IMG/VR virus record: IMGVR_UViG_3300025727_000028
Location: 1 to 36,751 of that record
Length of the DNA: 36,751 nt
Strand: one strand, 5' to 3'
Origin: a virus
Position 1 is the stretch's first letter; each line of letters starts with the position of its first letter. Under the pieces are notes generated by a model that made no database searches, had not been told where the DNA came from, and saw only the letters and a program-made list of their open reading frames with translations. This document shows, in pieces, positions 2,732-36,467 of the stretch. Made by a program: the position numbers and the translations under genes.

Positions 2732-4228
2732 TTATTTTTTATGAAAAATGAATATAGGTTCATATTTTCGGTAACTACCATCTACCTTTACACAATTTTT
2801 AACATTCTCCGGATTTAATCCAGTCATTGTTGTCATTAACATTTTCAACTTACCCTTATATTCACCACCTAATGATTCTATAATAAATATACTATCTTCT
2901 TCTAATGGATGAAATTTATCTGCTCCGATTTTGATTGAAGCTATATTCCAGAGTAAATAACGATTTGGTTTAAGATATTCAAATGCAGTTGTTAAAGTTG
3001 GTTTCAGGAAGTTATTTCTCCAATCTTCGTAAGCTGGGTAAGCCTTGAATGATTGCTCACTATCATCACTATACTGCTCACGGTCAAAGTATGGTGGGCT
3101 TGTGAAAACTAAATCAAGTGTTCCCTTATACGTCTGAAAGTCTGGATTGTTCCCAATTAATTCTGAGCCGTCTTGGAAAACGTGATACGTGTTTTTGTGC
3201 TCTTCCCAAAATGAATTCGTTTCCAATACTTCACTATTAAAGAAATCTGCTACATATTCATATCTTGTTTTACCTAATTCGTCTATGTAATTATCCGTAT
3301 TAGGGTCTGTGCCAATATAATGAATTCGCTTGAGTGATGACATAGCTCCGAGAATACGACCACCCCAACCTGCGGATGGGTCATACACATTGAGCACGTC
3401 TTGTGATATATGTTCTGTATATTTCTCATATAAGTATCTTGCTGTTAATGGTGGGAAGTTTACGGCTGGTTGTCCAAGTCCTAATCTAAATGCTTGAATG
3501 CCGGCTGGGAATATCTTTTGTCCTAAATTAAATACTCTAATAAAATATGTGAATTTCTCATCAGTTAATGTATCTAATGATTTTAAATTTGTAATATGAG
3601 ATTCATCTATTAAATCTACATCAAATAACCCTCTAATTTCATCTGAACTTAAAACTAAATGAGTTGGATTTTTTTCTTTTGATTGTCGAACTATGAAAAA
3701 GTTTTTTGATTGATTTTTTTGTATCCATTCTATTCCACTACCATTACTTTCAACACACCTTGACCAAGAATACATACTATCTCGTTTAAATGTTCTTCGT
3801 ATTATTTTATGAAAACTATCTCTGTAATCAATTGTAAAATAATCGTAAATGGAAGTTGCGTTCTTTTTAGTTCCAATTTTGGTTTTCAACATGGTAGGAA
3901 AGAATTGATTTACACCACTTCCAAATTTATTGTAATTTTGTATTACGTCAAATTTGCCAGTATCTTCATCTTTGGTTAGAAATTGTTTTTTACCCTGATG
4001 TAGTGGGTAATCTCTCAATTTACGAAAGTTCTTTTTTATTTTATCAGTATTTTGGCCAATAGTTGGAGGCACACCCATAGTGTCCCATTCGTATATTACG
4101 AACTCTCGTAATTCATCTATCCATTGTGTAGTTTGTGTATCGTCTTTCCATAATAGTTCTTCAAAAGTTATATTAACTTCTGATTCTAATAGACGACTTC
4201 TTTCGTAGTAGTATTTTTTCATAACCAT
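2732..4228 (-). CDS. DNA methyltransferase (SPPY type)
   Basis: A 498-residue protein with a SAM-binding motif I (VYDPSAGWGGRILGAM, DPSAGWGG at about 283-290) followed by the catalytic motif IV TSPPYFDREQYS (376-387). The TSPPY form is common in N4-cytosine and some N6-adenine enzymes. The N-terminal half is unique and may hold target recognition. The start is ATG 4228, or MKK at 4222. The open frame runs on to 4294, but those 22 residues (containing TAVRFRPAP) are the tmRNA 3' end read as protein. No clear SD is seen, so the message is probably released from the tmRNA precursor by 3' processing. The stop lies at the -35 of the downstream promoter. Confidence 0.82.
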   Translation of the reverse strand: MVMKKYYYERSRLLESEVNITFEELLWKDDTQTTQWIDELREFVIYEWDTMGVPPTIGQNTDKIKKNFRKLRDYPLHQGKKQFLTKDEDTGKFDVIQNYNKFGSGVNQFFPTMLKTKIGTKKNATSIYDYFTIDYRDSFHKIIRRTFKRDSMYSWSRCVESNGSGIEWIQKNQSKNFFIVRQSKEKNPTHLVLSSDEIRGLFDVDLIDESHITNLKSLDTLTDEKFTYFIRVFNLGQKIFPAGIQAFRLGLGQPAVNFPPLTARYLYEKYTEHISQDVLNVYDPSAGWGGRILGAMSSLKRIHYIGTDPNTDNYIDELGKTRYEYVADFFNSEVLETNSFWEEHKNTYHVFQDGSELIGNNPDFQTYKGTLDLVFTSPPYFDREQYSDDSEQSFKAYPAYEDWRNNFLKPTLTTAFEYLKPNRYLLWNIASIKIGADKFHPLEEDSIFIIESLGGEYKGKLKMLMTTMTGLNPENVKNCVKVDGSYRKYEPIFIFHKK

Positions 4229-4237
4229 TTTTTGTAG

Positions 4238-4666
4238 TGGAGCCGGGCGGAATCGAACCGCCGTGTTCTCTGTTTTCTTCGTAAAGTCATTCACAACTTA
4301 GTTAATTTCTATTAGTAGCAATTAACAAACAACTATGTGGATTTCTTTTGCACAGAACATATCCAGTAACTGACATTTTATTTTTATTCTCTAAATATAA
4401 AAAGAGAGTGTGTTTAACTTCTTTTATACTCGGGTGTTAAACAACCCAAGAACTCATGCCGCTAAAGCGTAAGTTGATTGGTAATCTGAAGTAGGTTCAA
4501 CATAATTGTCAAATCCCATTTCTGAATTAGCTAAATGCCAATCCACTACCAAACCGTCTAGTGAATTATCACCATTTGAGTTTGTGAGTCTGTTGTAACA
4601 AGTCGTACTCAAACTTGTGTTGCACTCTATCGTCAAATAACATGAATCGAAACCAATTTCGGCCCC
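4238..4666 (-). ncRNA. ssrA: Phage tmRNA (transfer-messenger RNA)
   Basis: The minus strand begins GGGGCCG (4666-4660) followed by a TGGTTTCGA element. It ends with a T-arm GGCGG-TTCGATT-CCGCC, then CGGCTCC and discriminator A at 4238. The two ends form a 7-bp acceptor stem with one G-U pair. In the middle is a tag reading frame ending SDYQSTYALAA and TGA (stop 4456-4454). YALAA is the ClpXP degron of SsrA tags. A GGGT...ACCC hairpin follows the tag stop. CCA is not encoded (CTA follows A). The resume codon is uncertain. The RNA rescues stalled ribosomes together with SmpB, for which no gene is seen here. It sits 6 bases after the 52-residue gene and 9 bases before the methyltransferase, so it must be cut from an operon transcript. 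Confidence 0.93.
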
Positions 4667-16914: not shown

Positions 16915-17595
16915 TTAAAATAATCTTTCTTGTGTAGTATGTTTTTCGATTCTTTCTTCTGCAATGTTGAAATATGTTTCATCAATCTCAATACCTATAA
17001 AATCTCTATTAGTTTGTTTACAAGCAACTCCTGTTGAACCTGAACCCATAAAAGGGTCTAAAATAATTTGTGTTTCATCTGTATTATTTTTTACAAATAT
17101 TTCAAGCATATCCACATTTTTTTCAGTAGGGTGTAATAATTTACTACTTGAAATTTTAGGAAATTCCATAACATCGGACAATCTTTTTTCTCTAAACAAA
17201 CTTCTTCCTTTATGTGCATAAATTATAAATTCGTGTTTCGGTGCGTATGATGCCTTTAAATCTCCAGAGCCATGATTATTTTTAACCCAGACAATAATAT
17301 TTTTTATTTTGAAATATTTTTCAATAGATTGTTTAAATTTATCAACATTATGCCAACTACAAAAAATATATAAAGATGAATTATTATTAAGAATTTTATC
17401 TGATTTTATTAAAAAATCTTCAAGCCAAATTAAATTTGAATCATTTTTTATTTTATCAAATTTTTCTTTCACAACTCTTCTATTACTTTGAAAAGACATT
17501 CCATAAGGTGGGTCTGTAATTATAGCATCGACCTTAATCCCATCTTCAATCATTCTATCCATTGCTATTAAGCAATCTTCATTATAGAGTTTCGT
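16915..17595 (-). CDS. DNA methyltransferase with apparent ACG start
   Basis: A beta-class DNA methyltransferase: catalytic TDPPYG near residues 27-32, variable middle, then LDPFMGSGSTGVA (SAM site) and IGIEIDETYF. DPPY points to N6-adenine. It ends TTQERLF like its neighbours. Three sister genes begin ATG-AAA-CT(C) (MKLYN/K) after AAGGAGAAATAAA. Here the same ribosome site and spacing lead to ACG-AAA-CTC (17595-17593), giving KLYNEDCLIAMDRM in frame. The first in-frame ATG (17562) lacks an SD and drops conserved residues. Either ACG is the start, or a point change has weakened the gene. Confidence 0.78.
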   Translation of the reverse strand, partial: TKLYNEDCLIAMDRMIEDGIKVDAIITDPPYGMSFQSNRRVVKEKFDKIKNDSNLIWLEDFLIKSDKILNNNSSLYIFCSWHNVDKFKQSIEKYFKIKNIIVWVKNNHGSGDLKASYAPKHEFIIYAHKGRSLFREKRLSDVMEFPKISSSKLLHPTEKNVDMLEIFVKNNTDETQIILDPFMGSGSTGVACKQTNRDFIGIEIDETYFNIAEERIEKHTTQERLF

Positions 17596-18382: not shown

Positions 18383-19336
18383 TTAAAATAATCTTTGTTG
18401 TGTAGTATGTTTTTCAATTCGCTTTTTAGCTATCTCAAAATAATCTTTGTCTATTTCAATCCCTATAAAGTCTCTATTCAAGTTTTTACAAGCTACTCCT
18501 GTTGTTCCACTTCCCATTGTTAAATCAACTACTGAATCATTTTCATTGCTAAAAGTCTTCATCAAATCTTCAAGCAACAATACAGGCTTTTGCGTTGGAT
18601 GGTAACCGTCATAATCCTTTTTGTATTTTAAAATATTTGATTTGTATTTTTTACCTTCCCATAGGTTAAAGGTGCTTGCGAACCTTTTAAAACAATTAAA
18701 ATGTATTTCCTTTAACTCTTGGTATTCCCTATTAAAAAAACCAGTTACTTCTCTTAATTTTAAATAATGTTTTTCAGGTATCATTGATGGTTGCAATGAA
18801 CTACACCAATGGTAAGCGGCTCCACCGTGTCCTTTTGTATTTAATCCACAAACACCACACATTTCATCAAGTGTTAGTTTTGCTTTTTTACGTTCTATAT
18901 TTAAGTATTCTCTATAACTATCATCTTCACCATAAGTTCCGTGAGAGCCTTTGCTAAAAACTAAAACATCTTCATAATAATTTAAAGGTGCTTTTTTAGC
19001 TGTTAAAGCATTTGCAAAATGGTCTTTCTCCCATATCATACTATAATTAAATGGTAAGTTTGGCAGTGCTTTATTTATTAATTCATTTGTAAATGGTTGC
19101 TGTGCTGTTAATATCATTTTGCCGTTTTTTCTTAAAATACGATTTGCGATTTCCATTATTTTATTAATATCAATAACACTATCCCATTCAGTTTTCCCTT
19201 TCATTCCATGATTTATGCTTTCACTATTTCCTAACCCTTTAACAGTTCCATAAGGTAAATCAGTCAATATTAAATCAACACTTCCATCTTTTATATGCTT
19301 GTGTTGTTCTAAACAGTCACCTTTATAGAGTTTCAT
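18383..19336 (-). CDS. DNA N6-adenine methyltransferase, DLPY type
   Basis: A 317-residue enzyme with catalytic TDLPYGT (25-31) and SAM motif VDLTMGSGTTGVA near the C-terminus, so motif IV precedes motif I (beta order). It shares long near-identical blocks with the 19459-20391 enzyme at both ends (GDCLEQHKHIKDGSVDL, YHPTQKPVLLLEDL). The middle is different and contains MCGVCGLNTKG, probably the target recognition segment. DLPY is one of the (D/N/S)-P-P-Y variants with the first Pro replaced by Leu. Confidence 0.87.
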   Translation of the reverse strand: MKLYKGDCLEQHKHIKDGSVDLILTDLPYGTVKGLGNSESINHGMKGKTEWDSVIDINKIMEIANRILRKNGKMILTAQQPFTNELINKALPNLPFNYSMIWEKDHFANALTAKKAPLNYYEDVLVFSKGSHGTYGEDDSYREYLNIERKKAKLTLDEMCGVCGLNTKGHGGAAYHWCSSLQPSMIPEKHYLKLREVTGFFNREYQELKEIHFNCFKRFASTFNLWEGKKYKSNILKYKKDYDGYHPTQKPVLLLEDLMKTFSNENDSVVDLTMGSGTTGVACKNLNRDFIGIEIDKDYFEIAKKRIEKHTTQQRLF

Positions 19337-19458: not shown

Positions 19459-20391
19459 TTAAAATAATCTTTCTTGTTTAGTATGTTTTTCAATTCTTTC
19501 TTCTGCAATTTTAAAATAGTTTTCATCTAATTCAATACCTATAAAATCACGATTTGTATTCATACAAGCAACTCCTGTACTTCCACTACCCATTGTTAAA
19601 TCAACTACTAAATCGTTTTCATTACTAAATGTCTTAATCAAATCTTCAAGCAACAATACAGGCTTTTGCGTTGGATGGTAACCGTCATAATCCTTTTTGT
19701 ATTTTAGTATATTGCTTTTGTATTTGTTGCCTTCCCATAAGTTAAATGTACTTGTATGTCTTTCATTTATCTTTTCAAGCTCACTGTAATTTAAAAATCC
19801 ATCCATATTATTAATTCGGTATTCTGTAATTAAAGCTAAGTATGTTTCTTTTTTGCAAAGTTCAAATTGTGAGCTTTTTATTCTAAAAACGTGGTCAGCT
19901 CTTTGTCCTATTGCCTCAATTACATTTTTCTTTTTAAGTCCAATAAAAGAAAGCACGTTACCAAAATACGTTCTAAGTGGGTGCAAGTTTTCAACATCAT
20001 ACTTTTTGCTAAAAACTAAAACATCTTCAATATAACTTACAGGTGCTTTATTTGACACTAAACAATTTGCAAAGTGCATTTTATCCCAGTACATATTATA
20101 GCTATGAGGTAAGTTAGGAATAGCTTTTGATATTAATTCAGTTGTAAAAGGTTGGTTAGCTGTTAAAATCATCTTGCCATTTTTTCTTAATATCCTATTG
20201 GCTATCTGCATGACTTGATCGGTATCAATAGTAATATCCCACTCAGAAACATTATATTTTTTTTCTTTTGCTACCCTGCTATTACCCAACCCTTTAACCG
20301 TTCCATAAGGCAAGTCCGTAAGCACCAAATCTACACTTCCATCTTTTATATGCTTGTGTTGTTCTAAACAGTCACCTTTATAGAGTTTCAT
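19459..20391 (-). CDS. DNA N6-adenine methyltransferase, DLPY type (paralogue)
   Basis: A 310-residue sister of the 18383-19336 enzyme, with TDLPYGT and VDLTMGSGSTGVA. Start and end are nearly the same; the central segment (about 140-225) differs. It therefore probably methylates another sequence. The start is ATG 20391 after AAGGAAAAATAAA; the 11 residues upstream in frame are leader sequence. It ends KQERLF. Confidence 0.87.
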   Translation of the reverse strand: MKLYKGDCLEQHKHIKDGSVDLVLTDLPYGTVKGLGNSRVAKEKKYNVSEWDITIDTDQVMQIANRILRKNGKMILTANQPFTTELISKAIPNLPHSYNMYWDKMHFANCLVSNKAPVSYIEDVLVFSKKYDVENLHPLRTYFGNVLSFIGLKKKNVIEAIGQRADHVFRIKSSQFELCKKETYLALITEYRINNMDGFLNYSELEKINERHTSTFNLWEGNKYKSNILKYKKDYDGYHPTQKPVLLLEDLIKTFSNENDLVVDLTMGSGSTGVACMNTNRDFIGIELDENYFKIAEERIEKHTKQERLF

Positions 20392-20392
20392 T

Positions 20393-20578
20393 TTATTTTT
20401 CCTTAAATGTTTTAAGTTTTCCATTTTGAGCTGAATACCATTTGTTCATATACCTAAATTCAAATCCTTTATCTCTCATACAAATAGCAATTTCTTCACC
20501 ATGTTTAGTTTTTAAAACAACTCCGTTATAAATCTCTTGCAGGATTATTGTGCCTTTTTTGTCTGTTGTTACTTTCAT
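20393..20578 (-). CDS. Hypothetical 61 aa protein
   Basis: The start is ATG 20578 (MKVTTDKKGTIILQEIYNGV), with GGAG 8 bases upstream. The frame continues 13 residues further upstream without a ribosome site. Beta-rich, ending RYMNKWYSAQNGKLKTFKEK. It overlaps the 42-residue gene by ATGA and runs into the leader of the first methyltransferase. Unknown function. Confidence 0.55.
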   Translation of the reverse strand: MKVTTDKKGTIILQEIYNGVVLKTKHGEEIAICMRDKGFEFRYMNKWYSAQNGKLKTFKEK

Positions 20579-23659: not shown

Positions 23660-24298
23660 TTAATTTAAAATTGTCCATTTTTTGTCATTACCTAAATCAT
23701 TCATAACCTTTTTATATTTTAAATTTTTAATTTCTCCTGTTATATTATTTTTTACTTTTACTTTATCATTTCTTTCGTACATTTTATCATTTTTAAACGG
23801 AACTATTTTTTTCTCATAATCAAATATTGTTTTTCCGTTAAGATGTGAAATTTCATGTTGTACAGCGATTGCTTCAAGTAACCGTAAATCTTTATCATCT
23901 GCATTTTCTTTTTCCCAAATTCCTTTACCACTGTTTGTTGAAACTCCACTAAAATACCAATTACTTTCTTCTTGTTCTGTATGTACTATAATATTCTTAT
24001 ATCGTTTGGTGTGTACACCTTTCTTTGGATATGAGAGACATCCCTCATAAAAATCTATTTCGTCCCATTTTTCAATTACTGTTGGGTTGATTAGTATAAG
24101 TGGTTCTCTAACATTTACTACTGCTACTTGAGCGTCTATATTGCACTGTGGGGCTGCCAATCCGATTCCCGATTTATTTTTACTTAAAATCTGGAATAAT
24201 TCTGTTGCTATTTTTAACCCATCTTCAACTGAAACTTTTTTGAGTTTCTTATTTATAACCGGATTATGTTCTTTGTTGCAATTAATTATTTTTCGCAT
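23660..24298 (-). CDS. def: Peptide deformylase, altered C-terminus
   Basis: A 212-residue enzyme that removes N-formyl groups from new proteins. All three motifs are seen: GIGLAAPQ (44-51), EGCLSYP (85-91, metal Cys87) and QHEISH (147-152, metal His148/His152, catalytic Glu149). The usual HExxH Asp is Ser here (HEISH). After the catalytic domain an extra KVKVKNNITGEIKNLKYKK segment precedes a divergent end. That end appears to be a substitute supplied by the endonuclease insertion. It overlaps the upstream gene by 17 bases. Confidence 0.88.
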   Translation of the reverse strand: MRKIINCNKEHNPVINKKLKKVSVEDGLKIATELFQILSKNKSGIGLAAPQCNIDAQVAVVNVREPLILINPTVIEKWDEIDFYEGCLSYPKKGVHTKRYKNIIVHTEQEESNWYFSGVSTNSGKGIWEKENADDKDLRLLEAIAVQHEISHLNGKTIFDYEKKIVPFKNDKMYERNDKVKVKNNITGEIKNLKYKKVMNDLGNDKKWTILN

Positions 24299-29575: not shown

Positions 29576-31207
29576 TTACATCATGCCTGGCATTCCACCC
29601 ATTCCGCCTGGTGGCATCATAGGTGATGTGTCGTCACTTGGAATTTCCGTAATAACGGCCTCCGTTGTGAGTAACATACCAGCGATTGAACTTGCGTTCT
29701 CTACTGCTACACGTGTAACCTTAGCTGGATCAATAATGCCAGCCTTGAACATATCTACATATTCTCCACTACGAGCATCAAACCCAGTTCCATTTTTACT
29801 ATTAAGAACTTCACGTGCTACGACGGAAGATTCTTCACCAGCATTTTCACAGATTTGACGAAGTGGTGCTTGAAGTGCTTTTCTCATGATATTCACTCCA
29901 ACCATTTGTTCATCATCTACTGATACATCGTCAAGAACTGAAATAGCACGAAGTAGAGTAACACCACCACCAGCGACGATACCTTCTTCAACTGCTGCTC
30001 GGGTTGCGTGTAACGCATCTTCCACACGAGCTTTCTTCTCTTTCATTTCAACTTCAGTTGGTGCTCCAACATTTAGTACTGCAACTCCACCACTTAGTTT
30101 AGCAAGTCGCTCTTGTAACTTCTCAATATCATAATCGGAAGTGGATTTTTCAATCTGAACTTTGATTTCATTAATACGAGATTTAATTGTATCTACATCA
30201 CCACTACCACCAACGACGGTTGTATTGTCTTTGTCGGATACAACACGTGAACAGGTTCCCATAAAATCAAGAGTTGTGTTCTCTAATTTATGACCAGCTT
30301 CTTCAGAAATTACGGTTGCTCCGGTGAGTGCCGCAATATCTTCTAACATTGATTTACGTCTGTCTCCAAATCCTGGTGCCTTCACTGCAAGAACTTTGAA
30401 TGTTCCACGGAGTTTATTCACTACGAGTGCCGCGAGTGCTTCACCATCTACATCTTCAGCTACTATGACGATTGGTTTTCCTGTCTGAACTACTTTCTCC
30501 AAAATAGGTAGAACGTCTTTCACATTGGAAATCTTCTTGTCATGTAATAAGATATATGGATCTTCAAGAACTGCTTCCATATTATCAGAATCGGTTACGA
30601 AGTATGGTGAAAGATAACCACGATCAAATTGCATTCCTTCTACGAAATCCAAATATGTTTCAGCTGTCTTACTTTCTTCTACAGTAATAACACCGTCTTT
30701 ACCAACTTTTTCCATTGCCTCAGCAATCTTTCCACCAATCTCACTATCATCATTTGCTGAGATTGTAGCTACTTGAGCAATTTGATTTGAATCTGGAAGG
30801 TCTTTAGCTGCGTTACGGATGGACTCTACAACTTTACTTGATGCAAAATCAATCCCACGTTTAATGGACATTGGATTTGCACCCGCTGTAACATTCTTCA
30901 CTCCTTCGTTTATGATGGCCTGTGCGAGAACCGTGGCGGTAGTTGTACCATCACCAGCTATATCAGATGTTCTTGACGCAACTTCTTTCAATAACTCTGC
31001 CCCTACACTTTCAAACTTATCTTCAAGTTCAATTTCCTTTGCTACTGTAACCCCATCTTTGGTTATGAGCGGAGAACCGAACTTCTTTTCAATAACTACA
31101 TTCCTACCCTTTGGACCTAATGTAACCTTAACCGCGTTTGCAAGTTGGTCTACACCAGACATCAAAGCTGAGTGGGATTGAGCATTGTATTTTATTTCTT
31201 TAGCCAT
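29576..31207 (-). CDS. groL: Chaperonin GroEL, full length
   Basis: A 543-residue group I chaperonin with all expected blocks: [24 protein letters not shown], the ATP-site [14 protein letters not shown] (near 85), the apical LVVNKLRG...[11 protein letters not shown], and [15 protein letters not shown] (near 400). The tail [12 protein letters not shown] matches the flexible Gly/Met C-terminus. Full length and intact motifs indicate a working 14-mer with GroES. It folds phage or host proteins during infection. It follows groES by 9 bases with an AGGAG site. Somewhat less AT-rich than the surrounding small genes, which may indicate acquisition from a bacterium. Confidence 0.98.
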
Positions 31208-31216
31208 TTCATTCTC

Positions 31217-31507
31217 CTATAACTTAGCCATTATGTCATTCTCACGAACAATTAATAAATCACTTCCATCAATATTGATTTCAGTTCCACTATATTTTCC
31301 ATATAGGACTTCATCATTTACACTAACGGATGGACTTACTAATGTTCCACTATCAGTTGTCCTGCCTGGACCAACTGCTACTACTTTACCGCGTTGCGGT
31401 TTTTCTTGTGCCGTATCGGGAAGAATAATTCCACCGGTGGAAACTTCATCAGCTTCTGCGGCTTCTATAACTACTCTATCCGATAACGGATTGATACTAT
31501 AACTCAT
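31217..31507 (-). CDS. groS: Co-chaperonin GroES
   Basis: A 96-residue Gro[22 protein letters not shown], the mobile loop [29 protein letters not shown], the [13 protein letters not shown] dome strand and [11 protein letters not shown]. All core positions are kept. It caps GroEL. Lies between hsp20 and groEL, with AGGAG before the ATG. Confidence 0.98.
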
Positions 31508-31543
31508 TTTACTTTCTCCTGTATTTATTAGTTATATTATTTT

Positions 31544-31615
31544 GATATAATAAAAGTGGGCTCGGTTGTTTTTAAGTTTGTTTATAATGGAAACTAAAAA
31601 TTGGTTGAACCCACT
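31544..31615 (-). terminator. Possible partial terminator between hsp20 and groES
   Basis: On the minus strand AGTGGGTTC (31615-31607) can pair with GAGCCCACT (31563-31555), one mismatch, followed by TTTTATTATAT. The loop is about 43 bases, too long for a strong classic terminator. It may attenuate between hsp20 and groES/groEL or set RNA stability. Confidence 0.4.
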
Positions 31616-31643
31616 CTATTATATAATAGTAATAATTTCTATT

Positions 31644-32117
31644 TTATGAAATTTTTACTATATTAACCATCGGAATTTCTGGTTCTATTTTGGGAAGTTC
31701 TATAGATAATATACCATCTTCAAATTTAGCTGATATATTTTCTCCATCAAGTAATTCACCTAATTCAAATGAACGTTTGAATGAAGATTGCTTCAACTCT
31801 CTACGAAGTACTTTAGCACCGTCAACGTCAAATGTATTATGTTTATTACCTGAAATAGTTAAGATACCATCTTCAACTTGAATGTTCAAATCCTTCTTAC
31901 GAAGTCCTGGAATTTCTGCGATGATGCCAACTTTATCATCCCATTCATAAACATTTATTTTTGGATACGATGAACCTTTATACGGATTCACCCCAACCGT
32001 CTTTGCTATGTCTGGAAATTGTGTGTTTACCACTTGGTCAAATAATGCGTCAAATGGTGTTAAGAATGTATCTCTATCGAAAAAAGGGATACCTGTGTGA
32101 AGTGCAACTTTAGTCAT
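31644..32117 (-). CDS. Small heat-shock protein Hsp20
   Basis: A 157-residue alpha-crystallin-type protein: KINVYEWDDKVGIIAEIPGL, KKDLNIQVEDGILTISGNKH, SFKRSFELGELLDGENISAK and FEDGILSIELPK. The last is the conserved GxLxIxLPK end of the crystallin domain. It holds unfolded proteins. The start is ATG 32117 with AGGAG 8 bases upstream; the upstream in-frame residues (MTNVTNRRNN) come from leader sequence. First gene of the chaperone unit. About 130 untranslated bases precede it, with no promoter of the window's main type. Confidence 0.95.
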   Translation of the reverse strand: MTKVALHTGIPFFDRDTFLTPFDALFDQVVNTQFPDIAKTVGVNPYKGSSYPKINVYEWDDKVGIIAEIPGLRKKDLNIQVEDGILTISGNKHNTFDVDGAKVLRRELKQSSFKRSFELGELLDGENISAKFEDGILSIELPKIEPEIPMVNIVKIS

Positions 32118-32248
32118 GTTATTTCTCCTGTTAGTTACGTTAGTCAACTATGAACATCAATCTCTTTTGAGCCTTGACATTCGGTTATGTTATTGTCCTC
32201 TATTGAGCGACAAATTTTTATACTCATCTATATATATCACGTAATTTT

Positions 32249-32755
32249 TCAAAACGTCTTTTTATTTTTAAAATCAAAAAATTCACCGGACTTATTTTCA
32301 GCATAACTATTAGTTGGATGAGTGTCATCAAATCTATAATGATATGTTAATGCATCTGCACACACTATATTCTTGTCTAATATATCTAATATTTCTTGTG
32401 TAGGATTTGGACCTGCCAATCTTTCTTTACATAACTGAACATTATCTTCCATCAGTTCTACACCATAGGTAGTGGATAATGCCTGTTCTAATGTACAATT
32501 ACTTTGTTCCATCTTCCGTATAACCACTTCTGAAAGAATTTGACCATCACCACAAGAATTATCCATATAAGTTTTAGTCCAATCATAAAACATATCAGGT
32601 GATTTTTTTTCTTCATCATCTAATATTTCTTGTACATATTTGGTTGGTGTAAAAACTTCCGCTGTTGCTTTCTGTCTTTCCCTATCTCTATCTATACCAC
32701 TCATATAATCAAAATTACGAGAATGACTTATATAATCATTTAGTATCTTGTTCAT
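32249..32755 (-). CDS. HsdM-like N6-adenine methyltransferase fragment
   Basis: A 168-residue protein with the first half of a gamma-type adenine methyltransferase. AEVFTPTKYVQEILDD corresponds to motif X, YMDNSCGDGQIL to motif I (SAM loop), YGVELMEDNVQLCKERL to motif II and NIVCADAL to motif III. It then stops, with no catalytic NPPY. The start is ATG 32755 (AGGA upstream) inside the last codons of the large helicase-methyltransferase gene, so the two are translated together. It may complement the NPPY-bearing large protein or be a truncated remnant. Confidence 0.75.
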   Translation of the reverse strand: MNKILNDYISHSRNFDYMSGIDRDRERQKATAEVFTPTKYVQEILDDEEKKSPDMFYDWTKTYMDNSCGDGQILSEVVIRKMEQSNCTLEQALSTTYGVELMEDNVQLCKERLAGPNPTQEILDILDKNIVCADALTYHYRFDDTHPTNSYAENKSGEFFDFKNKKTF

Positions 32756-35700
32756 ACCAATCCTGAATATATTCATTAACAAAATCTATTTCTTCTTGTG
32801 TAAATCCAAAATAATTAAATAACTTTTCATCATCCCACTCTTGTGTAAAATCAAGATAAGGTACTGCCCTTAACTCACCTCGATGTAAGTTTTGATTCAA
32901 TTTAAGAGTAGAAACGGCGAATCTTGAAAACTTTGTAAGTAAGTAATCAAAACAATTAAGTGCTTCAATCTCAGAATCAAATGTAATTTCATTTGAAGTA
33001 TTTTCAGTAGTTTTTTCTGTATATAAAAGTTCGTCAAAAGAATTTTCATATTTTTTAGAAATTATTGATTGAAATTTACCACTCGGTTTTCCATTTTTCG
33101 GAACACCAGTTGATATAGCGTTTACCTTGAGTAAATATTTTTTATATTTTTTTGTTTTCCTAAATAAATTTTCTTCTATAGAATTAGTATTTTGTTTATC
33201 AATTTTTTCTTTTATTGAATTTACTAACAAATTACCATGTATAAAGATATCATCTAAATTAGTATATGTGATAGTTTTGTTTTGTTTTTTATAGTAGTTG
33301 TTAACAACTTTTATATTTTTGTTTTTTACCTTTTTGATTCTCGTAAGACTAAGTGGGGCTTCTTGATTGATATCAAAAAGTTCATTTCCATTTAATAAGG
33401 TGAGAATAGCTTCCCAATCGGAAACAATTTTTTTAATTGTTTTTGTACTTGGTTTTTCATTTACAATCTTCCTACTGAGAAAAGGGGTAGCTGGATGTAA
33501 ACAAATTAAAGTACCACCAAAATTAAGTTCATGAAAACATTTAATAAATATTTCTATATGTTTAAAATATGGTGGGTTAATAATAATAAAATCTTTCTTG
33601 TTTGTAGAAGATTTAATAAATCCCATTGTATTATTAAGTTTTTCAAAAAAAGAGTTTTCATCTTCATAACTTAGTAATTCTATAATTTCTTCATTTGTAA
33701 CACCTACTTTCCCAAAAATAATCATAGAGTATCTTTTCAGTAAATGGGCCATTGCAATAATCCCACTACCACTTTTAGCATGAGGAAAAACGAAATTTTT
33801 CTTATCCTTTAATTTAAGTTCCTTAACCCAAGGTTCTAAACATCCTATCCAATTCTCTACTGAAAGTTGAGTATCATCACCACCATAGGTGAACCACTTA
33901 TCAATTCCATTTTTTGTAGTTGAAATAAGAGTTTCTCTATCCATATCTAAATAGTTTCGAATCCCCTCGATTCTACTATTTTTTAGTTTACCATTAATCT
34001 TATCAGTTAAACCAAATTTTCTTATAGTTTCCACAAAAATTCTTGAAAGTCCTTCGTTTGGTAATTCTAACCCTACTGAGAACTCATCCTCACCTTGATA
34101 CTTAAAAAGTTCATCTATATGTTTATCAACCTTCCCCTCAGATTTATAAACCGCCCATACAATATCAAGTTTACTCAAAGTTTGTTCGAATGATTTCTTG
34201 ACCTGATCCCGTAAATCTAATATCTCATTTTTAACTCTTTCTGTATTGTCTTTTTGGGATTTAGAATAATCGGTTTTTTGTCTACCAAGATTCCGTTTCC
34301 ACAAATCTAATTTATATTTTTGTGCCTTATTATTAGATGACCATTTTTGTTTTATTGCCCATTCTATCCAAGTAGAATCTAACTCATCAACGCCAAAAGA
34401 TTTATCTAAACAAGTACCAACAGTAAGTCCTCTCCTAATTGTATTTTTATTTACAATTTTATTAATCTTAGACTCTATTTCTTCAAGTTTTTTAGGTTCT
34501 GACCAAGTTCTTCTTTCATCAACATACTTTGTAATATCAATAATTGAAAAGAAATATTTTAAAGCAGCTGTTTGGTCACCACCATTAATCTTAGCCATAG
34601 AATCAACAAACTCAGCTCCTACTTGATAAATTCTATCCGGCTTATAATCCCACATAATAACTTTCTCAACTTTAGTTGTTTTACCAATATGATTATCTAA
34701 ATCAATATCAAATCCAAAACCTCTACCGAATAGTTGGAAATAAATTTCATAAGTAGATTTAGAAGATAAGTTAATAATACTTTTCCAATGTCTTTCTGAA
34801 ACTCCTTGAATCATACTACCAGCACTCAAAACAATTGTTCGTTTACCTTCCGATTCTGCCTTTAAGATAAGATTATTAACTTCGTCCTCATTCCAAGCAT
34901 CTCTACCCGTTGAACCTGCTACAAGTATAGGGACAATATTGTTAGAATATTTATGTTTTAGTATAAGTTCTTTAAATTTCCTACATGCAGCTACAGTATC
35001 TAAAAGTGCAATATGATGTTTTCTTTCCCTTGAAAATATGGGAGAAAATTTAGAATCAGGATTTAACATTTTTCCAACTAATTCTTCAAAATGAAATAGA
35101 TTTGTCAATATACCATCATCAGTATTCTGTAAATTATGGAGATTAAAATCAGAACCATCTGAATTCGAAAGTTCAATTAATTTAACCTCAAGTTGTAAAT
35201 CAATATTAAGATCCCCTAAAAGTTTTTCCTGAAATTCCTTGATTCCGTGGAAAAATGTATTTGACTCATCAAACTTATCTTGGTGATTTAAAACTATATT
35301 ACAGGGAGTACCAGATGATAGCGTTATTACACCATTACAAATAGACTCATAATATTTTTCCCACTGTGGAGTGAAGTAATTATGTGCCTCGTCCACAAAT
35401 AATTCATCACACTTTATATCATATGACTTTTTAAGTGCACTTAACTTTTCTTCAAAGTTAGGAAAATCTTTCTTTTCTGTCGAAGCCGTTATAAGTTGTG
35501 GTGAAAGAACCACAAGTGTATTTCTTATTGGTGTCTTGTTAAAATCAAAATCTTTGTTGGATTTCAACTTCACAAAATCCATACAATCTTTATAAGAGTT
35601 TTTCCATTTATTTTTCCAACCATTAAATACTTTAGTGTCATGACAAAACACAACATGGATACCTACTTTATTTTTTTTGACATATTCTCTTTTAATTTTT

Positions 35701-36467
35701 TCGAAGAAACACCAAGACTTTCCAAACCTCGTTGTTGCAAATAAACCAAAATATTTAGTTTTGCTATTAATCATCTTTAATATAGCTTCTTCTGAATCTT
35801 TAGATGATGTATACGGAATAAGAAGTTCATCTTTATTTAACTCTATCATTACTTCTAACCTAATTTTATCAAGAGTAGTAAAAAATGTTTCTCTACCAGT
35901 ACCATCTACTTTTGGTGGTATATTTGAAATTCTTTTATTTACTTTTTGTTCTACATCGTACGCGGTTCGTTCTTTATCAGTACCTAATCTTCTATCATCA
36001 TCTGTAAATTTGTAAGCCCATAAAATTACAAAAGGCTCATTTATTTTCCATTCACTTGTTATAGTTTCATCTGGTGTCTTATTATTGTTCTTAGAACCAT
36101 ATTGACCGAATTTTATCCAATCCAAAATGGATGATAGAGTCAAACCTTTCTTAATCATATTATTATAAACTGTTTCAGTTACCCAAGCATATAATCCTTG
36201 GCCTTTTGACTTGAATATTTCTAACTCATCAGTAGATAAAATTGTTTTAACTAACCAACCACCTTGTGCGTTCGGTCTAACTCCCCTTAACTTAAACTTA
36301 TTATCCATCTTCTTCATAACCTTTTTAATATACTTTTCTCGGTATTTCTTTTCCTGTTTATTTTGAAACAACTGAGATTCAATAACCTTTCTTTTAGCAG
36401 TATCCATTTTATCATGGTTTTTAAAACTTTTGATTGTACGTTCTTTTAATAATTCATTCATATTCAT
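32736..36467 (-). CDS. Large restriction/modification-like protein: GIY-YIG-like, SF2 helicase, N6-adenine methyltransferase
   Basis: A 1243-residue multidomain protein. Residues 91-195 may be a GIY-YIG/T5orf172-like nuclease: GLY at 91-93, KFG at 119-121, EQKV near 173 and GRETFF with Glu193. Residues 236-600 are an SF2 helicase: ATTRFGKS (244-251, Walker A variant), FVDEAH (357-362), TLSSGTP (382-388), and QLFGRGFGFD (578-587, motif VI). The C-terminal half has a weak SAM loop (FPHAKSGSGIIAMAHL, about 894-909) and catalytic IINPPYF (962-968), with GGTLICLHPATPFL after it. DFTQEWDDEKLFNYFGFTQE near the end resembles type IIG/Eco57I-like tails. Together this suggests a one-chain restriction-modification or DNA-processing enzyme. 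No SD precedes ATG 36467; an 11-codon frame overlaps it. Confidence 0.8.
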   Translation of the reverse strand: MNMNELLKERTIKSFKNHDKMDTAKRKVIESQLFQNKQEKKYREKYIKKVMKKMDNKFKLRGVRPNAQGGWLVKTILSTDELEIFKSKGQGLYAWVTETVYNNMIKKGLTLSSILDWIKFGQYGSKNNNKTPDETITSEWKINEPFVILWAYKFTDDDRRLGTDKERTAYDVEQKVNKRISNIPPKVDGTGRETFFTTLDKIRLEVMIELNKDELLIPYTSSKDSEEAILKMINSKTKYFGLFATTRFGKSWCFFEKIKREYVKKNKVGIHVVFCHDTKVFNGWKNKWKNSYKDCMDFVKLKSNKDFDFNKTPIRNTLVVLSPQLITASTEKKDFPNFEEKLSALKKSYDIKCDELFVDEAHNYFTPQWEKYYESICNGVITLSSGTPCNIVLNHQDKFDESNTFFHGIKEFQEKLLGDLNIDLQLEVKLIELSNSDGSDFNLHNLQNTDDGILTNLFHFEELVGKMLNPDSKFSPIFSRERKHHIALLDTVAACRKFKELILKHKYSNNIVPILVAGSTGRDAWNEDEVNNLILKAESEGKRTIVLSAGSMIQGVSERHWKSIINLSSKSTYEIYFQLFGRGFGFDIDLDNHIGKTTKVEKVIMWDYKPDRIYQVGAEFVDSMAKINGGDQTAALKYFFSIIDITKYVDERRTWSEPKKLEEIESKINKIVNKNTIRRGLTVGTCLDKSFGVDELDSTWIEWAIKQKWSSNNKAQKYKLDLWKRNLGRQKTDYSKSQKDNTERVKNEILDLRDQVKKSFEQTLSKLDIVWAVYKSEGKVDKHIDELFKYQGEDEFSVGLELPNEGLSRIFVETIRKFGLTDKINGKLKNSRIEGIRNYLDMDRETLISTTKNGIDKWFTYGGDDTQLSVENWIGCLEPWVKELKLKDKKNFVFPHAKSGSGIIAMAHLLKRYSMIIFGKVGVTNEEIIELLSYEDENSFFEKLNNTMGFIKSSTNKKDFIIINPPYFKHIEIFIKCFHELNFGGTLICLHPATPFLSRKIVNEKPSTKTIKKIVSDWEAILTLLNGNELFDINQEAPLSLTRIKKVKNKNIKVVNNYYKKQNKTITYTNLDDIFIHGNLLVNSIKEKIDKQNTNSIEENLFRKTKKYKKYLLKVNAISTGVPKNGKPSGKFQSIISKKYENSFDELLYTEKTTENTSNEITFDSEIEALNCFDYLLTKFSRFAVSTLKLNQNLHRGELRAVPYLDFTQEWDDEKLFNYFGFTQEEIDFVNEYIQDWYEQDTK

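Follow-up and report, generated by a model that had tools for sequence, protein, structure and literature searches.

A putative phage restriction-modification-like enzyme in which the SAM-binding half may be a separate, trans-acting protein

Related systems and the window locus

Type ISP restriction-modification enzymes such as LlaBIII and LlaGI are described as one chain combining a nuclease, a superfamily 2 (SF2) motor, a coupler, a methyltransferase and a target recognition region (available text of PMC4666363). Here we analyse two overlapping genes, encoding the proteins P0001 and P0002, on the minus strand of a 36,751-base virus record (IMG/VR IMGVR_UViG_3300025727_000028; the whole of this stretch is referred to as the window). 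P0001 is like LlaBIII and LlaGI in being a single chain with an SF2 motor followed by a methyltransferase, and it matches LlaBIII by sequence profile (E-value 2.4e-6). It may differ in its nuclease, which in Type ISP enzymes is of the Mrr family, as the conserved residues of the P0001 N-terminal domain (N-domain) align instead with GIY-YIG/T5orf172 relatives, and it does differ in that the half predicted to bind S-adenosylmethionine (SAM) lies in the second protein, P0002, and not in the P0001 chain. We consider it probable that the two proteins are subunits of one restriction-modification-like enzyme, and the supply of SAM in trans by P0002 is well supported by the motifs, a conserved pairing of the two genes, complementary loss of the SAM motif, single-chain fusions, and loci with several catalytic genes per SAM half.

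Other systems share parts of this arrangement. In Bacillus subtilis DnmA-YeeB-YeeC, an adenine methyltransferase occurs with SF2 helicase and T5orf172 genes, and homologues in Vibrio crassostreae have been associated with resistance to phages; this system consists of three genes, and no separate SAM half is named in the available text (PMC9973331). The permuted methyltransferases of phrog_11371 from the Aeromonas phages ZPAH1 and phiAS5 are made of the same halves, catalytic then SAM, but are single chains without the nuclease and motor, whereas the window halves are two genes. Circularly permuted adenine methylases have been published from jumbo phages, with split subunits not mentioned in the available text (PMC7824862). 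No description of a separate SAM-binding subunit of an adenine methyltransferase was found among the titles and abstract openings of open-licence PMC papers, with REBASE outside this search. The PADLOC entry PDLC03626 ('Type IIG') spans the helicase and methyltransferase as one fusion, and there was no two-subunit entry among the PADLOC matches seen. M.AquI and M.EcoHK31I are 5-methylcytosine methyltransferases made of two polypeptides; these differ in being cytosine enzymes and are not known to have one cofactor subunit serving a number of catalytic subunits.

P0001 and P0002 overlap by 20 nt in different frames. The second open reading frame (ORF) covers 32249–32782 (minus) and would give 177 residues if begun at TTG; from the sequence, the ATG at 32755 is the best candidate for the start, with a product of 168 residues, because the equivalent ORF in the related locus L013 begins at the aligned position and AGGA is found 5 nt upstream. 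Near-identical copies of the locus are present on two more IMG/VR contigs, one of which is cut. The features needed here are as follows:

32736..36467, minus strand: P0001, 1243 residues, predicted one-chain GIY-YIG-like domain, SF2 motor and methyltransferase catalytic half
32249..32755, minus strand: P0002, 168 residues, predicted separate SAM-binding half with motifs X, I, II and III, stopping before motif IV
32761..32764, minus strand: AGGA, possible ribosome-binding site of P0002 within the P0001 coding region, 5 nt upstream of the ATG
32739..33605, minus strand: predicted methyltransferase catalytic/specificity half of P0001, residues 955–1243, first part of phrog_11371, 39% identical to the free catalytic-only protein of locus L038
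33567..33578, minus strand: motif IV NPPY of P0001, residues 964–967, read from the sequence
33768..33788, minus strand: degenerate cis SAM loop FPHAKSG of P0001, residues 894–900, with K[ST]G like the bacterial catalytic subunits
32645..32653, minus strand: motif X FTP of P0002, invariant in an 11-row alignment
32543..32563, minus strand: motif I DNSCGDG of P0002, with D, G and G invariant in the same alignment
32441..32467, minus strand: motif II YGVELMEDN of P0002, with Y, V, D and N invariant in the same alignment

An earlier note on this DNA had described a 1243-residue protein with nuclease-like, helicase and NPPY motifs, followed by an overlapping gene with motifs X, I, II and III and no NPPY, and the coordinates, lengths and motifs were all found as claimed. 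It had also pointed out that the SAM loop of the large protein lacks the usual acidic/Asp-Pro start, and this is borne out by two single-chain relatives of about the same length, in which NPPY is preceded by YYPTP...DPVGGRG (L013) and FYGTP...DPSAGRG (L033). At that place P0001 has FPHAKSGSG as motif I and motif X is not recognisable, and by these comparisons its own SAM half is decayed. The C-terminal regions of L013 and P0001 are 43% identical, and the catalytic module of L038, which lacks an N-terminal half and opens at MKFDVVVGNPPY, shares 60% identity with L013 and 39% with P0001. The same catalytic module is therefore seen free (L038), behind an intact cis half (L013) and behind a decayed one (the window), and in all three the operon includes a P0002 relative, which in L038 comes after four further catalytic genes.

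The permuted methyltransferase and its two halves

Residues 958–1238 of P0001 correspond to positions 4–262 of phrog_11371 (383 positions; E-value 1.9e-29), and residues 32–145 of P0002 to positions 281–382 (E-value 2.2e-20). By these alignments the two proteins make up the halves of a single METHYLTRANSFERASE, with the layout of a permuted methyltransferase in which motif IV onward is followed by X, I, II and III. Both halves occur in one ORF of 386 to 417 residues in Aeromonas phages, with the NPPY half before the SAM half, and the 27 annotated phage records matching P0001 are all from Aeromonas and do so at the C-terminal end only (20–24% of the query). Two genes are found in cyanophage P-SSM2, where PSSM2_036 (193 residues, NPPY at residue 9) is accompanied by PSSM2_037 (132 residues, X-I-II-III); this pair is not mentioned in the available text of PMC3037559. 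Klebsiella phage KpV477 (L213 1493–3426) has a 381-residue NPPY ORF, a 110-residue ORF and then a 153-residue SAM half; by eye the start of the 381-residue ORF is GIY-YIG-like, and the genes are annotated as hypothetical proteins. We note that in L083 (4168–7002), and also in L082, a SAM half (residues 612–741) is located in a 944-residue ORF without NPPY, which by eye may be a virion protein and perhaps a packaged cofactor subunit.

The P0002 relatives (11 rows) share FTP, D..[CA]G.G and the Y.V of motif II, and have a conserved end point before motif IV. Compared with eight relatives, P0002 differs mostly at third codon positions, with non-synonymous and synonymous distances (dN and dS) of 0.19–0.24 and 1.1–1.9, respectively, for the seven which were computable, and P0002 is under purifying selection. 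Pfam and NCBIfam provided no useful match to P0001 or P0002, and PADLOC gave only a weak MTase_II match to P0002. The relatives of solved structure closest to P0002 by sequence are the adenine methyltransferase CamA and M.BseCI, followed more weakly by the StySJI M protein; the earlier description of P0002 as HsdM-like is corrected to this extent, CamA and M.BseCI being closer than the M protein.

Two structure models were produced, one of P0001 residues 44–1243 and the other of a joined reading, P0003, which had a mean predicted local distance difference test score (pLDDT) of 65 and a predicted TM-score (pTM) of 0.54, with block means of 89–96 in the SAM half (residues 401–490). Residues 361–501 of P0003 could be aligned with CamA 2–158 (Z 12.9, 130 aligned residues, root mean square deviation (rmsd) 3.0), and the model agrees with P0001 and P0002 being two parts, presumed to dock, of one CamA-like enzyme. 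The top Foldseek match of the P0001 model was the Type ISP enzyme LlaBIII (E-value 1.2e-15), with low TM-scores (0.25 and 0.21) and an rmsd of 20, and in a PDB comparison the matches to this large model were filled by helicases.

Pairing, motif loss and exchange of the catalytic half

A scan for P0002 relatives identified 337 from viruses, of which the best 80 were kept, and the SAM-half set we examined had 89 locus entries, 86 with a SAM-half ORF, which formed 53 clusters at 90% identity. A methyltransferase ORF was adjacent in 43 clusters and elsewhere in the locus in three, with five cut by contig ends and two having none, although one of these (L028) has an adjoining 353-residue NPPY protein missed by the profile. 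Scanning with the catalytic module alone gave 65 loci in 57 clusters, with the SAM half adjacent in 36, in the same locus in ten, absent in nine and cut in two (the two sets share some contigs). Among these nine, L152, L181 and L205 have the SAM half within a reading frame as long as the methyltransferase itself, and L207 has weak SAM-half matches in two ORFs. The SAM half was next door in all eight loci found with catalytic-only proteins, five of which are on contigs already known from the SAM-half set while the other three are new and alike. The homologues of the 168-residue protein are encoded by separate, conserved genes, and their partner is conserved as well; they are not the unpaired truncations that the earlier note had considered.

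Motif conservation was compared in 96 non-redundant adjacent pairs containing 94 distinct SAM halves, after removal of ORFs truncated at contig ends and of L001–L010, which are copies of the window together with annotated phages such as P-SSM2, S-CAM7 and Ah1; the window stands in this set as L023, with an identical P0001. Motifs were defined by regular expressions, with [DE]...G.G as the strict form of motif I, which was found in 93 of the 96 SAM halves and in all 96 in a looser form. Fifteen partners have no room for a cis half, with motif IV in the first 50 residues, and one has no recognisable NPPY; in the remaining 80, the strict motif was found in the cis half of just 20, whether a stretch of 150 or of 350 residues was searched. 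This can be compared with control Eco57I methyltransferases without a detected SAM half, in which the strict motif was found in 21/23 using the wider stretch and 16/23 using the narrower (a different pattern with a short stretch had first given 10/23). One of the two failing controls, L221, itself belongs to the present family: it is an EINSKTG member, with K[ST]G and a methionine before motif IV, and is cut off upstream at the contig end. The controls were drawn from 30 Eco57I loci, of which four had no readable motif IV and three had a SAM-half-like ORF (L218 and L219, from genomes having the operon, and L220, a short piece); as these loci are only some 2.3–3.8 kb long, a SAM half further away would have escaped detection.

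The decayed loop also has a recurring form. All 20 catalytic subunits of the bacterial operons have a loop reading DP..K[ST]G, and in viral pairs K[ST]G is found in 8/12 with the SAM half first and in 3/64 with the other order, including the window. No SAM half among the 96 pairs has it. It should be noted that K[ST]G was looked for anywhere in the protein, and that IPPNKTG in the viral L063 may be a chance match, while six of the 20 bacterial partners, every one of which has K[ST]G, were passed by the loose rule.

Some loci have several catalytic genes per SAM half. L038 has one SAM half and five tandem catalytic-only genes, four of which are found by the profile, L184 has three catalytic genes beside one SAM half, and L166 has a single SAM half with two short catalytic genes and a one-chain 1186-residue enzyme reading DPAVKSG. 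L194 (3311–9817) has five tandem methyltransferases followed by one SAM half, and as the N-terminal halves of the five are 93–96% identical and the C-terminal halves 21–46%, this is apparently an array for changing specificity. Across the 26 pairs with a SAM half at least 55% identical to P0002, the median pairwise identity was 64% for the SAM halves and 25% for the catalytic regions (8% when shuffled); judged by these identities, the SAM half is constant and the catalytic/recognition half is swapped.

Among the 80 partners that have a cis half, 71 have an in-frame methionine just before the motif IV strand, and this is the codon at which the catalytic-only genes begin. A Shine-Dalgarno-like four-base site is found upstream of 38 of these 71 methionines, compared with 68 of 789 other internal methionine codons. 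When synonymous codons were drawn from each gene's own usage, 4.5 sites were expected in bacteria and 9.4 in viruses, compared with the 17/20 and 21/51 seen, and neither value was reached in any of 2000 simulations, though the bacterial genes are related and do not represent 20 independent events. The methionine was present in 1/23 control Eco57I genes, this being L221, but also in 6/9 viral clusters without a neighbouring SAM half (in L179 as its own start codon), which indicates that its presence follows the clade and not the neighbour, and for an internal start the ribosome-site test carries more weight. This suggests that internal starts yield free catalytic halves from the long partner genes. 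P0001 lacks this methionine and reads NKKDFIIINPPY, with no such site by eye at the nearest ATG (residue 948), and on this reading the full-length chain would have to use a trans SAM half.

Operons with a SAM half of about 190–240 residues and an Eco57I-type catalytic subunit were also found in gut Clostridia, Bifidobacterium subtile, Acidaminococcus and plasmids, many with an adjoining helicase gene, and these are unlike the window in having the SAM half first and with an extra tail. The small subunit is rare in bacteria, with 2/291 genomes of one class positive (E-value 1e-30, seed included). T5orf172 was matched in three of the four separate helicase proteins scanned (L111, L112 and L210) and not in the fourth, the L110 helicase of a differently arranged Rickettsiales locus. 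A Sphingopyxis plasmid encodes a 208-residue SAM half, an Eco57I methylase and a helicase with T5orf172, while a conjugative plasmid of Lactococcus lactis has a 230-residue SAM half and a single 1452-residue chain with the cis loop EINSKTG. This chain matches ResIII and Eco57I, with no match to T5orf172, and its layout is the closest to the window.

We see roughly even chances that these loci represent a widespread modular adenine-methyltransferase system, in which a small, slowly-evolving SAM subunit would serve one or several fast-changing catalytic/specificity subunits, made as genes starting at motif IV, by internal starts in long genes in which the cis SAM loop is often a K[ST]G pseudo-loop, or, in the case of the window, as the final part of a one-chain nuclease-translocase. 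If so, splitting at motif IV would allow phages to change methylation specificity by swapping the catalytic half alone, giving a simple route to new specificities and a ready-made split methyltransferase tool. The catalytic and cofactor halves of adenine methyltransferases would then often be separate and exchangeable, both in phages and in a bacterial type of restriction-modification system, and short genes annotated as 'N-6 DNA methylase' or 'hypothetical protein' (PSSM2_036/037 and those of the Lactococcus and Sphingopyxis plasmids) would be explained as halves of working enzymes.

The N-domain, the motor and alternative readings

The N-terminal part of P0001 includes the following features:

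35868..36197, minus strand: candidate GIY-YIG/T5orf172-like N-domain, residues 91–200, with GLY 91–93, KFG 119–121, Glu193, a weak T5orf172 profile match and modelled strands and helices
34545..35753, minus strand: predicted SF2 helicase-like motor, residues 239–641, matching 74 ORFs in a local iterative search, with a model Z of about 20–22 against SF2 helicases
35715..35729, minus strand: Walker A RFGKS, residues 247–251, Gly249 and Lys250 in 20/20 rows
35382..35393, minus strand: DEAH box, residues 359–362, Glu360 in 20/20 rows
34722..34736, minus strand: motor motif VI QxxGR, residues 578–582, within QLFGRGFGFD, Q578 and R582 in 20/20 rows

The invariance of these motor residues and the model comparison uphold the SF2 helicase assignment made in the earlier note. 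The GIY-YIG assignment fared less well and is plausible but weak. In an alignment of 20 rows Gly121 is retained in 20/20, Glu193 (in GRE, residues 191–193) in 18/20 and Tyr93 in 15/20, so that the glutamate has mostly been kept in homologues, and the N-domains of 7/10 relatives match T5orf172 (PF10544) at the same place. The P0001 N-domain had no Pfam match itself, including PF10544, and profile comparison with the T5orf172 set was weak (E-value 0.0054, probability 6.7), while comparison with another N-domain group gave nothing. The predicted strands and helices are, we presume, compatible with a GIY-YIG fold, and nuclease activity is uncertain from the sequence.

The mechanism we propose is that P0001 would contribute the GIY-YIG/T5orf172-type domain, an SF2 DNA translocase and the catalytic/target-recognition half, its own cofactor half having decayed, and that P0002, carrying X, I, II and III, would dock beside the NPPY strand in a physical complex and supply SAM in trans, so that the active site would be built across the interface. 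Methylation might then protect the phage's own DNA, and unmodified DNA, perhaps that of the host or of rival phages, might be translocated and then cut, in the manner of Type ISP enzymes, in which case the phage would carry a self-contained enzyme against unmodified DNA. The possibility of SAM binding in trans had been raised in the earlier note, and has gained from the conserved pairing, the SAM loop being intact mainly in the short protein, the single-chain fusions, and partners in which the protein begins at motif IV, leaving them without a SAM half of their own.

Several observations weigh against this proposal. Confidence in the models was moderate (pLDDT 64–65, pTM 0.46–0.54), and the P0003 catalytic half gave only middling agreement with CamA, in a match running up to CamA residue 577 (Z 7.5–8.2, rmsd 5.4–7.1). 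A SAM half without a detected partner in the locus examined is a true exception in L020/L084, and no SAM half was found for catalytic-only L179 in its 31.7-kb record or for L157, L172, L192 and L153 in records of 4–32 kb. The fourth and fifth L038 genes read NIPF rather than NPPY. The cis loop looks intact in the 20/80 pair partners, as it does in all five L194 genes (DPAIGGG), and the SAM half may not always be strictly needed. These intact-looking loops would also fit P0002 being a SAM-sensing regulatory subunit that only switches the enzyme, with the partner's cis half forming the methyltransferase core; SAM acts allosterically in Type I enzymes, and the conservation of K[ST]G itself in 20/20 bacterial partners suggests a retained role for the cis half. 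We regard this as unlikely given the 15 partners without any cis half and the single-chain fusions which carry this SAM half alone. It is far less probable still that P0002 is the decaying remnant of a second methyltransferase, with P0001 inactive in methylation or working alone: the lack of NPPY in P0002 might be read in this way, as might the unrecognisable motif X and degenerate motif I of P0001, but a remnant would not be expected to show purifying selection, a conserved end before motif IV and pairing with very different partners.

A further alternative, compatible with SAM supply in trans by P0002, is that the pair is a self-protecting methyltransferase only and that the nuclease and motor are relics which no longer cut, and this we hold to be doubtful, though less so than the regulatory-subunit explanation. 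An arginine on the helix after YIG is nearly invariant in the alignment of T5orf172 relatives, and both this and a histidine of these relatives are absent from the N-domains of P0001, L015 and L026, which counts against an active nuclease. The available text of PMC9973331 similarly calls B. subtilis dnmA-yeeB-yeeC a non-functional restriction-modification relic. The complete retention of the Walker A, DEAH and QxxGR residues, together with that of Gly121 and Glu193, argues in contrast for function, as does, more weakly, the long gene being open in the window and the two near-identical records, since these may be from one phage.

The 37-kb window record holds several DNA modification genes, including three more phrog_67 methyltransferase genes (16915–17562, 18383–19336 and 19459–20424, minus) and a phrog_498-like C-terminal region at 2732–4294. 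Directly downstream of P0002 are GroEL, GroES and Hsp20 genes recognised by eye (29576–32147, minus), and an Hsp20-like gene likewise comes after the SAM half in L018, with one other gene between. A peptide deformylase gene (phrog_2890) is located at 23660–24298 (minus).

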